Assembly: GCA_017559505.1 (NCBI GenBank)
Contig: JAFYSF010000007.1
Span: 186,001 to 250,000, forward strand
Direction: 5' to 3'
Length of the DNA stretch: 64,000 nucleotides
Origin: Paludibacteraceae bacterium
Lineage (GTDB): Bacteria > Bacteroidota > Bacteroidia > Bacteroidales > Paludibacteraceae
Below are positions 4,313-52,361 of this stretch, one piece after another. Every line of letters starts with the position of its first letter. The stretch's first letter is position 1. A program made the translations under genes and the position numbers. The notes beneath the pieces are model-generated. The model did not search any database. It worked only from the letters and a program-made list of their open reading frames with translations, and was not told the DNA's origin.

Positions 4313-5441
4313 CTTCTAAATACAAATTAACTGAAAAATAATTCAAAAACAAATAATAAAACACAAACATCATAGAATATGACTCCATCGTCATCATCAA
4401 CAAAAACGAACAACAACCAAATTGCAAAAATGTAACACCACTATTAATATTTTCATTTGCTTTTTTCACAGAAACTACCATTATTGCAATAAAAAGACCC
4501 AATAATATAAATCCTCCTTTAAGCAACATTGTTAATATAAAATTATGAGCAGATAAAACATTAAAATGATAATCAAACCACTCTGGTGATTGTATTCCAT
4601 AACCCACCACAGGTGAGTCTAAAATTAAATTAACTGCTTCAAACCAAACCCGAGCTCTATCTGTAAAAGTCATATCCTTTCCTAAAATATCTTCAACAAA
4701 CCAAACCGCATAATTATTATCTATTTCCATTTGTAAATATAAAAGGATAAAATTAAAGAACAATATAAATACAAGAAATAAACTTAATGACAAACGAGCT
4801 CCTTTAACAACACTAAAAAACATAAAAAATACAGTCAACCCAATTCCAACTGTAGAAGTCATAGAACCCATAAATTGAACAGTAAAAAACGAAATTATTG
4901 ATATCATCACTAAATTCCACAACATTCTACGTGTGTTATAAAAATAAAATGCATTTGTAATAATTGCAGCCAACAACACAGGACCCATAGAATTATAATT
5001 ACGTCCCAAAATAAACGCAGCTTTACCATCAATATAAAAATGAGCACTTGGAGACATTAATGTCAACAAAAAATTCAAATATACAAAAAATGATAAAATT
5101 ATAGTGGCACAAACCAATATATCCCGAAAATCAAAAAACTTAAATATAATCAATAAAGTTGTTATATTTATAAATTGAAAAAAAAACATTGTTTTTTGAT
5201 CTGAATACAACAATGAAACACCACCCAAAAAAATGGCATACAACAACAAATAATATTCTATTTTTGTAAAATAAAAATGCCTTAAATATAAACAAAAAAA
5301 TAAAACAAAAAATACTAATATTCTTAATCCTGAAAACAACACATCTAAAATTGGTATAAAATCAAGTACCAACATTGTTTGTGTAAAAAGAATAAATAAT
5401 ATGACAAAAAGTATTATTTGTTTTTTAGCTACTATCCACAT
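4296..5441 (-). CDS. O-antigen/capsule polymerase-like membrane protein (Wzy/WaaL superfamily)
   Basis: A 381-residue protein made almost entirely of hydrophobic helices (about 10-11), with one large external loop near residues 230-290 that holds a DSPVVGYGIQSPEW segment of the kind seen in the Wzy_C region. Its position between the flippase block and the glycosyltransferases supports polymerisation of lipid-linked repeats in the periplasm. An O-antigen ligase has the same fold and cannot be excluded. Very A/T-rich composition, like the rest of the operon's 3' half. Confidence 0.8.
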   Translation of the reverse strand: MWIVAKKQIILFVILFILFTQTMLVLDFIPILDVLFSGLRILVFFVLFFCLYLRHFYFTKIEYYLLLYAIFLGGVSLLYSDQKTMFFFQFINITTLLIIFKFFDFRDILVCATIILSFFVYLNFLLTLMSPSAHFYIDGKAAFILGRNYNSMGPVLLAAIITNAFYFYNTRRMLWNLVMISIISFFTVQFMGSMTSTVGIGLTVFFMFFSVVKGARLSLSLFLVFILFFNFILLYLQMEIDNNYAVWFVEDILGKDMTFTDRARVWFEAVNLILDSPVVGYGIQSPEWFDYHFNVLSAHNFILTMLLKGGFILLGLFIAIMVVSVKKANENINSGVTFLQFGCCSFLLMMTMESYSMMFVFYYLFLNYFSVNLYLEDGEHV

Positions 5442-5444
5442 AAA

Positions 5445-6332
5445 TTACTTTGACAAATCAATTAAATCACCCAACAATCTATCTGTATATTCTAATTTAC
5501 CTGTATCCAATCCTGCAGCTGGTGTAAATGTCAATTCTCCAAAAACAACTTTACCATCTACTAAATAAAAATCCGAGCGAACAAAAGGGAATGGAGCAGA
5601 AAGAATTTCTGCATATTTTATCATATCTTTCCATCCTATAGGAATATTATACTTAAAATCAAACGGTGCATTAAGTCCATCTCGTGTCATTTCTCGCTGC
5701 AAATTACCATCACAGTCAAAATAATAAAATTTAGGTTTACCTTTATCTCTTCCTATACAAACCATTACATAATAAGGTTTACCATTACAACAATATATTT
5801 TATAATCATCAGGTGCTGCATTATTATGAGTATCTAAAAATTTTTCACAAATTATCTTTTTATGAATATAAGAATAATGCATTTCTGACAATCTTAAATG
5901 TTGTAAACTTCTCATCCAACGTCTAAACATAGACTTAACAGATGGTATATCTAATTTTGATTTATCTGTACAAATTAAATTCATACCACAACCATAATTC
6001 AATTTCATTACAAATTTATTCGGAATTTTATCAAAATCAATATCTTGCACATTATCATAAACCCCATATAATTCATTCAAAATCTCACCACAACCACATT
6101 TTTCAACATACTCACGTACGGCATATTTATCTGCACACTGAATTACCAACGGATTTTTATAATATGTATTAAACTTCAACCACAAAACTTTTTCATTTGA
6201 AGTCTGTGGATTATCCAAATCTAATTTTTTACCAAAACGTCTCCAATACAAAAATTTAGTATTCAATTTTGGCGAAATTAAAGTCAATAATGACGTAAAT
6301 ATATGGCTTATTTTAACTCTTATTTTACTCAT
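5445..6332 (-). CDS. TupA-like ATP-grasp protein
   Basis: The 295-residue protein matches the TupA-like ATP-grasp family found in surface-polysaccharide loci. Visible motifs are DKYAVREYV (about 66), a KLNYGCGMNLI nucleotide-binding segment (about 109-119), CEKFLD (about 160) and a C-terminal RSDFYLVDGKVVFGELTFTPAAG that carries the acidic metal ligands. The family is thought to make amide or peptide-type linkages on polymers, by analogy with TupA of teichuronopeptide synthesis. Its immediate upstream neighbour is the N-(carboxyethyl)amino-acid synthase-like gene, a suggestive pairing. Confidence 0.8.
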   Translation of the reverse strand: MSKIRVKISHIFTSLLTLISPKLNTKFLYWRRFGKKLDLDNPQTSNEKVLWLKFNTYYKNPLVIQCADKYAVREYVEKCGCGEILNELYGVYDNVQDIDFDKIPNKFVMKLNYGCGMNLICTDKSKLDIPSVKSMFRRWMRSLQHLRLSEMHYSYIHKKIICEKFLDTHNNAAPDDYKIYCCNGKPYYVMVCIGRDKGKPKFYYFDCDGNLQREMTRDGLNAPFDFKYNIPIGWKDMIKYAEILSAPFPFVRSDFYLVDGKVVFGELTFTPAAGLDTGKLEYTDRLLGDLIDLSK

Positions 6333-32909: not shown

Positions 32910-33609
32910 AAAAGAAAAATTTAAAAGTTAAACAATAAATATATCGGCCTAAATGATATAACACATTTTCCAAATAACTCCGAAAATTTAAAATACATCA
33001 GTAAGACTCTGCAAATTTAATCAATTCCAAGGATATTTGCAAATTTCCACAAAAGTAAAATAAAATATCAAAATCATGCTGCAAAGTTACAACTTCAATT
33101 TGACAACCTCTGTCAAACATATTTTTATTTGTAAAAAAGGTACTTTAATTAACAACCTTAACATGATAGCAAAACATGTAGCCGAAAATCAAAGTACCAA
33201 AAAAAACGAGTCTCCTAAATAAGCTTTTCTAACAAACTTGGCTCAAAGGTCTGCATTATTTGAAGACTCTACAACAAATCATCAAGGAGAGATGCCTATC
33301 TCTCACACTCGCAAGTGCAGCTGCCGATGGCTTTTAGATGAAGGTTCTAATACTGCTCAAAAGCAGCAGCAACATCCAAAAGCCGTTGCAAAGTTGCAAC
33401 AAAAAATACTCTTAATAATTTGTCGTTAGTAAAAACGTCTATCATCAATTCGTTAAACACTTAACAATGTACACGATACGACAATGTCTTTCTTCCAGGA
33501 CTCGATAGCTAGTGTCCTTTTCGAGTGCAAAGTTACCACAAATCCTCAAATCCTCCAAATCTCTACAAGGCTTGCAGAAATTTGCTCAATATAAAAAATA
33601 GTTGTAACT
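32910..33609. other. Gene-free spacer between helicase and LRR genes
   Basis: No convincing gene on either strand. It holds the candidate helicase promoter/operator (33,082-33,117), a GTTGCAA-AG-TTGCAAC inverted repeat near 33,385 that resembles the repeats at 36,824 and 36,940, and the LRR promoter at the right end. The A/T-rich part at 32,930-33,200 shows nothing else. Confidence 0.6.
33082..33117 (-). promoter_or_regulatory. Candidate helicase-pair promoter with palindromic operator
   Basis: On the minus strand TAACTTTG (33,082-33,089) is a -7 match. No TTTG lies 19-21 nt upstream; instead the inverted repeat TTTGACA-N5-TGTCAAA (33,099-33,117) covers that position, as expected for a regulator-dependent promoter. 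The leader to the helicase ATG would be about 165 nt. Confidence 0.4.
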
Positions 33610-33612
33610 TTG
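33581..33612 (+). promoter_or_regulatory. Promoter of the LRR protein gene
   Basis: TTTG (33,581-33,584), a 20-nt spacer and TAACTTTG (33,605-33,612), a consensus promoter. The ATG at 33,637 is about 18-20 nt past the expected transcription start. Confidence 0.85.
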
Positions 33613-46593: not shown

Positions 46594-47046
46594 TTAATCG
46601 TTCAAAATCTTTTTGAGTTCTTGGGTAATAACACCCCTTGCGCGTTCGTTCAACACCTTTGATTCGCCAATGAATTGTCGTTTCGGTATGCGTGTCTTAC
46701 GACCACGACCTGCATTATTAGTTCCTTCGTTGTGAGCTGCTGCGTATGGCACATAGGTATATACAACTGCTTTGCCTGGCGAGGCGCGTTTGTTTACAGA
46801 TTTGTACAAGTGGTTACGCCTTGAGAGCAATGTGCCGTATGCCCTATCTGGATGTTTTGGGTCTGATTTGCGTTTGGCAGGTTTCCATTTCTCCAGCTTT
46901 GAATCAACAAAACCCTCTTGGCGAAAATTCTCCCGAACGAACTTCACAGCTTCAGTGCCAACTTTGACAGGCAAAGTCCGATTATACGCCTGATTTATCT
47001 GCCTTTGCTTTGTTTTAAGCAGTTTTTTGAACTGTTCTGGGGTCAT
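46594..47046 (-). CDS. Phage virion morphogenesis protein (Mu gpG / tail S-like)
   Basis: A 150-residue basic protein. It has the family pattern: an N-terminal helix (MTPEQFKKLLKTKQRQ), WKPAKR, a LLSRRNHLYKS segment, YVPYAAAHNEGT and a C-terminal RIPKRQFIG. Members act in head completion or head-tail joining. The ATG at 47,046 is preferred; a longer frame beginning with TTG would run through the candidate RNA gene on the other strand. Confidence 0.82.
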   Translation of the reverse strand: MTPEQFKKLLKTKQRQINQAYNRTLPVKVGTEAVKFVRENFRQEGFVDSKLEKWKPAKRKSDPKHPDRAYGTLLSRRNHLYKSVNKRASPGKAVVYTYVPYAAAHNEGTNNAGRGRKTRIPKRQFIGESKVLNERARGVITQELKKILND

Positions 47047-47070: not shown

Positions 47071-47101
47071 TTTGTCGTTTGAAAAATTTGTAGTACTTTT
47101 G
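47071..47101 (+). promoter_or_regulatory. Promoter of the structured RNA
   Basis: TTTG (47,071-47,074), a 19-nt spacer and TACTTTTG (47,094-47,101), in the plus direction inside a minus-strand operon. Confidence 0.65.
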
Positions 47102-47106
47102 CGGTC

Positions 47107-47177
47107 AGAAAAGAATAGAAGATTTGAGTGTTTTTGGAGTATGGTACTCGCAGGGCTCAATGATTCTATTCTTTTTT
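47107..47177 (+). ncRNA. Candidate structured phage RNA (about 70 nt)
   Basis: Starts 6-7 nt past a consensus promoter and ends in a T6 run. The ends pair over 12 bp (47,109-47,120 with 47,164-47,175). Inside, TTGAG/CTCAA and a GAGTA-TGG-TACTC hairpin add two nested helices. No ORF is carried. It is antisense to the gpF-gpG junction of the leftward packaging transcript and overlaps the gpF stop codon. The hairpin could alternatively be just a terminator for gpF on the minus strand; the promoter argues for an RNA gene. Confidence 0.5.
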
Positions 47178-48431
47178 ACATATAAAGTATGGTATTTCAA
47201 AACCTCTTCTTCTTACTTCGGTCTTCAAAAGATACATACCATTAGAAGTGTTAAATTCATAAACATTGTAATGTTCTACACCACGTCCTCGTTTTTTTTC
47301 AATGTTTGCAATATCCTTTGGATTAGACATATCTTTTCCCTCCCCAAGCGGACTGATTCTTACGAACTTTACTTTTGACGGTTTAGTGAAGAATGAAATC
47401 ATAGCTTCTACTTCTCCAGCGTTAATTTCATGCCAGTACAGAGATTTGAACCATTTCTTACTATCAAGCATTTTCCCCGTTTTTAGAGCTTTAACTGTTC
47501 TGATACCTCCAGGTCTTTTTTCCGCCAATTTACGAGCTCGCACAATACTCATTATTTCAGCTTTTTTTGCCGAAATATGATTTGCTTCAGCTTTCTTTTT
47601 TGCATTTGCAACACTCTTACTAACCTTTCCACATCTATTACAATTCTTTCGCCCTGCCAAATCCATAGCAAGTGCCATGAGTTTATTGCCAGCGAACGGA
47701 CACGACAAGCAGCTCTTTGGATAGTATGGGTGTTTGTCAGAGAATAGTTCTTCACTCTTGGCTGGGTTACTCTCTAAACCTCGTGCAGGGTCTGACTTGC
47801 CGTCGCTTGTAGGTGTAGCTGTTACATTGCTATCGCTTTGCTGAAGCTCACATTTGCAGTTCCAGCGGTCGCCAGGTTTGTGTTCGTTCCAAAATGGGTC
47901 ATCCACTGGTCGTACTGTTCCCCAAAATACTCTGTGGTCTGCACCAGGATTAGGAGAGGTAGATTCTATCCATTCAAGGTTCGGATAAACATCTTTTTCC
48001 GCTTCAAACATTTTCCATTCGGCAGCGTTTTGAGCTCGAAGTATGGCGGTATTGTATTCAGTACGTAACCAGGCACGATTGCGGTGCTCAATATAGGGCG
48101 ACACATCTTTGACAAACTTCGAAAATGGTTTTAGTTGTCCGTCATCGCCTATCATTTGTGCTGCTATATCTTGTTGCATGCGGTGTACGCGAAAAGCAGA
48201 AAACACATCCGCACTATTTTGGAATGAGTTATTAAAGGTGTCATTAGGCAAAGGTATGTCCTTTTCTGTAGCATTAGCATAGCCCTCTGTGATTGCCTCG
48301 TTGAAGATTTGACGTGTCTCTTGAAATAGATTCTCTTCTACTTCGTGATCAATATCAACATTTCCTTTGTATATATTCACCAACGCACGAGCAATACCCT
48401 CTACACTCAAACTAACATCACCTTCGACCAA
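47166..48431 (-). CDS. Mu gpF-like phage head morphogenesis protein
   Basis: A 421-residue minor head protein. The conserved core HRNRAWLRTEYNTAI, WIESTSPNPGADHR and PGDRWNCKCEL is the SPP1 gp7/Mu F signature. A Cys cluster follows (CLSCPF, CNRCGK), and a C-terminal region of about 120 residues (FKSLYWHEINAGEVEAMI) is extra to the minimal domain. No ATG is available: the listed start is TTG, and the open frame with a conserved-looking GINDLPPLVEG continues upstream into the portal gene, so a CTG/ATT start or a shifted frame is possible. Confidence 0.82.
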   Translation of the reverse strand: MVEGDVSLSVEGIARALVNIYKGNVDIDHEVEENLFQETRQIFNEAITEGYANATEKDIPLPNDTFNNSFQNSADVFSAFRVHRMQQDIAAQMIGDDGQLKPFSKFVKDVSPYIEHRNRAWLRTEYNTAILRAQNAAEWKMFEAEKDVYPNLEWIESTSPNPGADHRVFWGTVRPVDDPFWNEHKPGDRWNCKCELQQSDSNVTATPTSDGKSDPARGLESNPAKSEELFSDKHPYYPKSCLSCPFAGNKLMALAMDLAGRKNCNRCGKVSKSVANAKKKAEANHISAKKAEIMSIVRARKLAEKRPGGIRTVKALKTGKMLDSKKWFKSLYWHEINAGEVEAMISFFTKPSKVKFVRISPLGEGKDMSNPKDIANIEKKRGRGVEHYNVYEFNTSNGMYLLKTEVRRRGFEIPYFICKKE

Positions 48432-52252: not shown

Positions 52253-52361
52253 AAATCGGGTGCAAAATTACTGCTTAAGTAGTCTTTTTTCAAATATCAC
52301 GGTCAGATTGGCAGTACTATTAGGAGTGGCTACTAAAAGGTTGTAATTTTGCACCCGATTT
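52253..52361. promoter_or_regulatory. Divergent late promoters in a 19-bp inverted repeat
   Basis: AAATCGGGTGCAAAATTAC (52,253-52,271) is perfectly inverted at 52,343-52,361. Each arm contains TAATTTTG as -7 element and a shared downstream GCACCCGATTT. The leftward promoter also has TTTG at a 20-nt spacing; the rightward one has none and carries CTACTAAAAGG instead, near the CTACTTAAG of the left. Together they drive the packaging block and the capsid-tail operon. Confidence 0.8.

Follow-up and report, generated by a model that had tools for sequence, protein, structure and literature searches.

Among toxin-antitoxin systems, RNA antitoxins have been described chiefly in a small number of type III families, such as ToxIN, CptIN, TenpIN, AbiQ, and AbiF/RCd22. 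AbiF/RCd22 is the nearest prophage case, its RNA antitoxin being prophage-encoded and acting in trans (PMC12373285). Proteins are generally regarded as the agents of immunity to polymorphic toxins. Polymorphic toxins carried by the phage protein MuF have been described (Jamet 2017, PMC5576092; Bxa and Apk2, PMC11699363), and delivery of the MuF toxin domain with the virion has been put forward as a hypothesis (PMC5576092). Small open reading frames (ORFs) beside Bacteroides MuF toxins are treated as immunity proteins (PMC11699363). The locus described here lies in a stretch of 64,000 nucleotides (nt) from a Paludibacteraceae bacterium (GenBank assembly GCA_017559505.1, contig JAFYSF010000007.1, positions 186,001 to 250,000), hereafter the window. 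Between gpF and gpG, two genes of a Mu-like (transposable) phage of gut Bacteroidales, the window carries a predicted small structured RNA antisense to the packaging operon, and gpF encodes a MuF head protein with a predicted toxin domain at its C-terminus. Comparison with related loci suggests that this RNA is probably an immunity RNA resembling a type III antitoxin, which guards both lysogen and producing cell against the nuclease-like toxin domain of gpF itself.

gpF is a MuF polymorphic toxin carrier. Its residues 1 to ~267 are MuF (PF04233, E 1.6e-11), and the remainder is swapped among relatives, in which at least ten clusters of C-terminal domains (CTDs) are found on related MuF N-termini. 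Toxicity of the CTD is predicted from its fold and its family relatives. The CTD clusters that come with an RNA match the LPD3, PBECR, or CdiA_C nuclease families, some of them below the curated cut-off. Other clusters are a papain-fold glutamine deamidase (Gln_amidase) and a peptidase-like domain.

A distinct conserved RNA core accompanies each toxin family. RNA similarity is higher in pairs of loci from the same toxin cluster, and this holds in every band of backbone identity (permutation, 0/2000). In the pairs L104/L109, L117/L123, and L025/L026, the MuF N-termini are 91-99% identical, the toxins differ, and RNA similarity is that of the background. The N-terminus most similar to that of the window among those compared is from L035 (82%), which has a different toxin and an unrelated RNA (local score 14). 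L005 and L016 have toxins 78 and 75% identical to that of the window, with RNA scores of 102 and 72; the L016 RNA is clearly homologous to the window's, though its N-terminus is just 65% identical. Where sequence similarity between RNAs is lost, the architecture (outer stem, middle stem, and apical hairpin) is often retained.

An independent scan with the LPD3 toxin domain gave 28 loci. In 28/28 an antisense promoter is present at a distance of 53-105 nt from the stop; the RNA is recovered by model R2 in 27/28 at E <=1, the last few being weak. L181, L185-L187, L189, and L196 have no detectable match to the MuF model, yet the hairpin is there, its loop being GAUUGUAGUUC or a near variant of it; L177, a short ORF from the same scan, is likewise without a match to the MuF model. 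Judged from these sequences, the LPD3-type RNA belongs to the toxin domain.

Two further observations concern the RNA segments themselves. L143 and L150, which belong to different toxin clusters, have RNA segments in common in their gpF-gpG gaps (TCATAACTGCCAGCGTCGG); perhaps their toxins are distantly related, or one locus is a recombinant. In L031 (5257-5455), a GCGCGAUxxCUUCAAGC-type core is followed by a second part with GGTTCGAATCC, which is tRNA T-arm-like and possibly a tRNA mimic or decoy.

Conservation of the antisense position was assessed in 85 related loci made non-redundant on the toxin domain (79 after removal of papain-type CTDs). The slot was defined by a TAnnTTTG element 35-110 nt from the gpF stop and oriented towards it. 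Such an element is found in 72/85 loci, or 72/79 excluding papain-type CTDs; at control positions and on the other strand it is found in 1-7 (of 76-85), and in shuffles in 6.7. Measured from promoter to terminator, the 72 RNAs are 77 nt long at the median (5-95%: 64-102), and their median minimum free energy (MFE) z-score is -4.0. Several RNA families have two further hairpins ahead of the terminator, with conserved loops. Model R1 places a window-type RNA at the equivalent position in relatives, although in L018 at E 0.7 only. In searches with R2 and R3 (344 genomes each), strong matches adjoin MuF. The weak R3 matches L167 and L168 were rejected as terminator look-alikes, these loci having neither MuF nor gpG.

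Compensatory changes are found in several of these RNAs. In the window family, four pairs are compensatory (double changes) among three distinct homologues, 96.7% of cells are paired, and pairing is halved when the partner is slid; this is the covariation that the sequence-only reading had named as its check. The LPD3-type RNA has double changes at 15/21 pairs in nine sequences (0/500 shuffles). In a model-fitted alignment of 21 sequences, double changes are found at 18/21 pairs, and pairing is 88.4% as compared with 66.1% when shuffled and 40-55% when slid. The CdiA_C-type RNA has double changes at 7/16 predicted pairs. RNAalifold missed its hairpin P1 because of alignment gaps.

In papain-type (Gln_amidase) loci, the slot holds a protein gene. 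In 6/6 non-redundant loci of this type, the antisense promoter is situated ~225-257 nt away from the stop and has an ORF of ~77-82 codons under its control. Such an antisense ORF is absent from 74 of the 75 other promoter-bearing loci, the remaining one being L137 with its peptidase-like CTD (Fisher 2e-8). Because papain-type loci carry an ORF there, the position is best described as one slot, occupied by an RNA where the toxin is of the nuclease type and by a protein where it is of another type. That relatives have a different RNA for each toxin type suggests that RNA can stand in for the usual protein antidote. Small antisense ORFs were also observed in the slots of L012 (3578-4001), whose CTD is metalloprotease-like by eye, and L137 (5060-5639), and both are candidate immunity proteins. 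The window's 119-nt gap contains no ORF of immunity size. In the gaps of L025, L026, L030, and L037, there is an ORF of ~80-100 amino acids (aa) in the sense direction (MKKIII..NWLFN..RKKQAIKKAQQ..), which is read as a backbone gene. As an immunity protein, this ~80-aa ORF was rejected, since near-identical copies are beside different toxin types (L026, L030, and L037).

Some loci have more than one RNA unit. L142 (2251-2454) has two tandem antisense RNA units, a cognate LPD3-type RNA accompanying its LPD3 toxin and a second RNA. The second unit, farther from gpF, is complete with its promoter. Over 92 nt it has 97% identity to the RNA found in L146, a related phage whose CdiA_C-type toxin is absent from L142. 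This orphan RNA points to immunity, because determinants kept for lost toxins are a signature of polymorphic-toxin immunity. L119 (4916-5253) has two tandem units that are 88.8% identical, each with its own promoter and terminator. L051 has the core hairpin in two copies. L035, a Paludibacteraceae metagenome-assembled genome, has a gpF-gpG gap of 615 nt (5326-5942) in which several antisense TAnnTTTG promoters and terminators follow one another in tandem, and L045 has the same arrangement; these tandem units are possibly an array of immunity RNAs. A genome from the window's own family has a gap identical in sequence to that of L035, and the host of the phage is therefore probably a member of that family.

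A more general arrangement appears likely from these comparisons. Across Bacteroidales phages, each polymorphic nuclease toxin of the head would have its own antisense-encoded, toxin-specific immunity RNA. One promoter slot would hold either an RNA (nuclease) or an immunity protein (deamidase or peptidase-like), and orphan RNA units would be kept after toxin exchange.

In the window itself, the features described in the sequence-only reading were confirmed. A promoter, a self-pairing sequence with nested helices, and a T6 end are present at 47071-47177 on the plus strand. The reading as a structured phage RNA, transcribed from a promoter of its own opposite the packaging operon, draws much more support from the comparison than from the window alone. 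By pattern match, the promoter is of the Bacteroidetes housekeeping type (-33 TTTG, N19, -7 TACTTTTG), but this pattern has 10 matches in the window versus 4.6 by chance, so that a single match is weak evidence alone. The RNA's 5' end was placed from the promoter and its 3' end from the U-run. As a whole it is one long interrupted hairpin that closes on itself; it is a single unit, with no tandem repeat array, and CGCAGGG, within 47124-47160 (+), is a conserved 3' linker. Structure predictions are of nested helices only. The MFE z-score is -2.7 for the 107-nt stretch on the plus strand and -5.1 for the trimmed RNA. The minus strand of the same region folds as well (z = -4.9), and the choice of strand therefore relies on the promoter and the U-run. 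Because the promoter match is not significant alone and both strands fold, the case for the RNA is a comparative one.

Besides the intergenic segment, the RNA covers the final ~12 nt of gpF. At 47166-47180 on the minus strand, and likewise in relatives, the antisense U-run is read as Lys and Glu codons at the C-terminus of gpF (KKE*, RKE*, and MEK*). The end of the protein would therefore be shaped by the terminator of the RNA. No Rfam covariance model matched the window or 18 related loci above the gathering score, and BLAST of the region against phage records found no match. An exact 18-mer of the RNA gave three matching stretches in viral contigs. The sole match of P0003 in 395 genomes was the window itself.

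Table 1. Coordinates in the window of the RNA, its promoter and structural elements, and the adjoining genes
Feature	Position	Strand	Basis or remark
RNA promoter	47071-47101	+	TTTG 47071-47074, 19-nt spacer, TACTTTTG 47094-47101; pattern match and equivalent element in relatives
Small structured RNA, ~72 nt	47106-47177	+	Fold, z-score, covariation; model R1 finds an RNA at the same place in relatives
Outer closing stem, 47110-47120 / 47164-47174	47110-47174	+	Three compensatory pairs versus L016
Middle helix, 47124-47128 / 47156-47160, and apical hairpin, 47137-47140 / 47146-47149	47124-47160	+	
U6 terminator tail	47172-47177	+	Sequence; on the other strand, the final codons and stop of gpF are overlapped
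gpF, MuF minor head protein (PF04233), 421 aa	47166-48431	-	Swappable C-terminal domain
gpF C-terminal toxin-like domain, predicted BECR RNase-like fold	47169-47630	-	Neighbours RelE, colicin D, CdiA-CT, HigB
gpG, phage virion morphogenesis / tail completion protein (PF05069)	46594-47046	-	Next gene of the operon

The following mechanism is proposed for the immunity RNA. The MuF domain would place the toxin in the virion, and the toxin would enter the next cell together with the DNA. Having a promoter separate from that of the packaging operon, the RNA would be made constitutively, also in a lysogen whose head genes are off, and the lysogen would thereby resist its own toxin and the toxin of sister phages. 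The folded RNA would bind the nuclease domain directly, probably as a substrate mimic, perhaps of a substrate loop, that blocks the RNA-binding site of the toxin.

Other explanations were weighed against immunity. A cis-antisense regulator of the type I kind, pairing with the 3' end of the gpF mRNA and the gap to lower leaky expression of gpF or of downstream head genes in the lysogen, is unlikely. In its favour, the position of the RNA is antisense, with overlap of the gpF end and the intergenic sequence, and silencing would be an advantage for a toxin-bearing head gene. Pairing needs no internal structure or loop, however, yet both are conserved with compensatory changes. Nor would such a regulator explain the conservation of the loop sequence across unrelated carrier proteins, the ORF that replaces the RNA at non-nuclease toxins, or the orphan RNA in L142, which disfavours antisense regulation because a regulator would have lost its target. 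The antisense regulator of the packaging transcript suggested earlier is not the best fit for the further reason that the RNA changes with the toxin on the same backbone. A regulatory effect on gpF may exist alongside immunity. It is improbable that the RNA is an activator, a guide, or a delivered cofactor of the toxin rather than its inhibitor. The same linkage and toxin specificity would be expected of it, but the slot at papain-type toxins holds ORFs of the kind treated as immunity proteins (PMC11699363), and the orphan RNA is retained without its toxin.

That the hairpin is just a terminator or insulator between gpF and gpG, perhaps bidirectional, with an incidental promoter match, is very improbable, even though many of the RNAs end in a strong hairpin with a U-run and the minus strand folds too. 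A mere gpF terminator fails as an explanation, as the U-run and the promoter are on the opposite strand from gpF. The promoter is conserved at 72/85 loci where ~7 are expected, and several RNA families have the extra hairpins with conserved loops ahead of the terminator. There is hardly any likelihood of a structural or packaging RNA of the head, comparable to the packaging RNA (pRNA) of phi29. It would suit a position between the head genes of a transposable phage, but an RNA of this kind, also suggested by the sequence-only reading, is expected to follow the head genes. The RNAs described here differ from the phi29 pRNA in following the toxin and not the head or packaging genes: near-identical head genes have unrelated RNAs, and one toxin type has a common RNA despite different carrier proteins.

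Several points weigh against an immunity RNA. The window's own RNA family has three distinct homologues only. Same-cluster pairs with CTD identity <45% have RNA scores at background. The more distant RNAs of the window superfamily are not alignable in sequence (MAFFT gave no alignment of this wider set), and architecture is all that they have in common. The fold neighbours of the window CTD have modest scores (Z <=5.0), and Foldseek gave no significant match. Moreover, the RNA and the CTD are adjacent and could be passive co-travellers, which is answered in part only by the conservation of the loop, the replacement by a protein, and the orphan RNA.

The window CTD is predicted to be RNase-like (ribonuclease-like). 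It has no Pfam match, and BLAST against phages and plasmids and a Foldseek search of the PDB found no match and no significant match, respectively. Its AlphaFold2 model has a mean pLDDT (predicted local distance difference test) of 84.6. By VIA-align, its closest solved structures, with Z 3.7-5.0 over 71-90 residues, are RelE, CdiA-CT, the colicin D tRNase, and HigB, which are members of the BECR group of ribonucleases.

The neighbouring genes are Mu-like and include a weak rve transposase-like domain, an AAA ATPase, the small terminase, Portal_Mu, MuF, gpG, a Mu-like protease, and the capsid. The gap of 119 nt between gpF and gpG, already noted in the sequence-only reading, was confirmed, with the RNA inside it; the two genes are encoded on the minus strand, where gpF stops at 47166 and the ATG of gpG is at 47046. 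The longer gpG frame, said there to have no ATG, is 188 aa and begins at TTG. The alignment with homologues begins only at the ATG at 47046, so the extension upstream of it is non-coding. A promoter match of the form TTTG/TAATTTTG directly precedes the small terminase gene, at 52263-52294 (-). It is a candidate promoter of the packaging operon and, being of the housekeeping type, could be leaky in the lysogen. Two divergent consensus promoters, at 33528-33559 (-) and 33581-33612 (+), are 21 bp apart and may form a regulatory switch.

RNA immunity that extends across polymorphic phage toxins would, once confirmed, form a new class. It would mean that inhibitory RNAs specific to a toxin have been evolved or exchanged by phages many times over. 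RNases and tRNases would then have a large number of independent RNA inhibitors in nature, with the cognate target of each encoded beside it. The tolerance of lysogens for MuF nuclease toxins that lack a visible immunity gene would be explained as well. A promoter facing the MuF stop would give a rule for finding such RNAs elsewhere. In openly licensed papers, no link between MuF and type III systems, no RNA immunity to polymorphic toxins, and no matching RNA antitoxin of a Bacteroides prophage was found, although this absence is not proof.

Comparison with known systems shows where the element is similar to them and where it differs. As in type I toxin-antitoxin systems, an antisense RNA overlaps the toxin gene. 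The carrier, however, is a head protein of 421 aa and not a small hydrophobic peptide, the fold and loops of the RNA are conserved, and the RNA is kept without its target in L142. Orphan and displaced arrays of contact-dependent inhibition (CDI) and Rhs systems are similar in that immunity determinants for lost toxins are kept (L142) and tandem units are found beside one toxin (L035 and L119), but the retained units here are RNAs with their own promoters and not protein genes. The known MuF polymorphic toxins share the MuF N-terminus, the location among head genes, the swappable toxin CTD, and the adjacent immunity determinant. Their immunity factors are proteins, whereas here a non-coding RNA is found on the opposite strand beside nuclease-type domains. 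As in type III systems, a small structured RNA is linked with a toxin, here one predicted to be RNase-type, and direct contact between RNA and protein is the proposed route of neutralisation. The toxin here has no match to a ToxN, CptN, or TenpN family. In type III systems, the RNA is upstream of the toxin in one operon, and the antitoxin is a tandem repeat array (PMC5086642); the window RNA is a single unit that has a promoter and a terminator to itself and lies on the opposite strand. Also in distinction from type III, the toxin is the C-terminus of a capsid protein, and there are many unrelated RNA families, one per toxin type. By analogy, the element would act like a type III antitoxin, but one that dispenses with the defining repeat array, the common operon, and the common strand.
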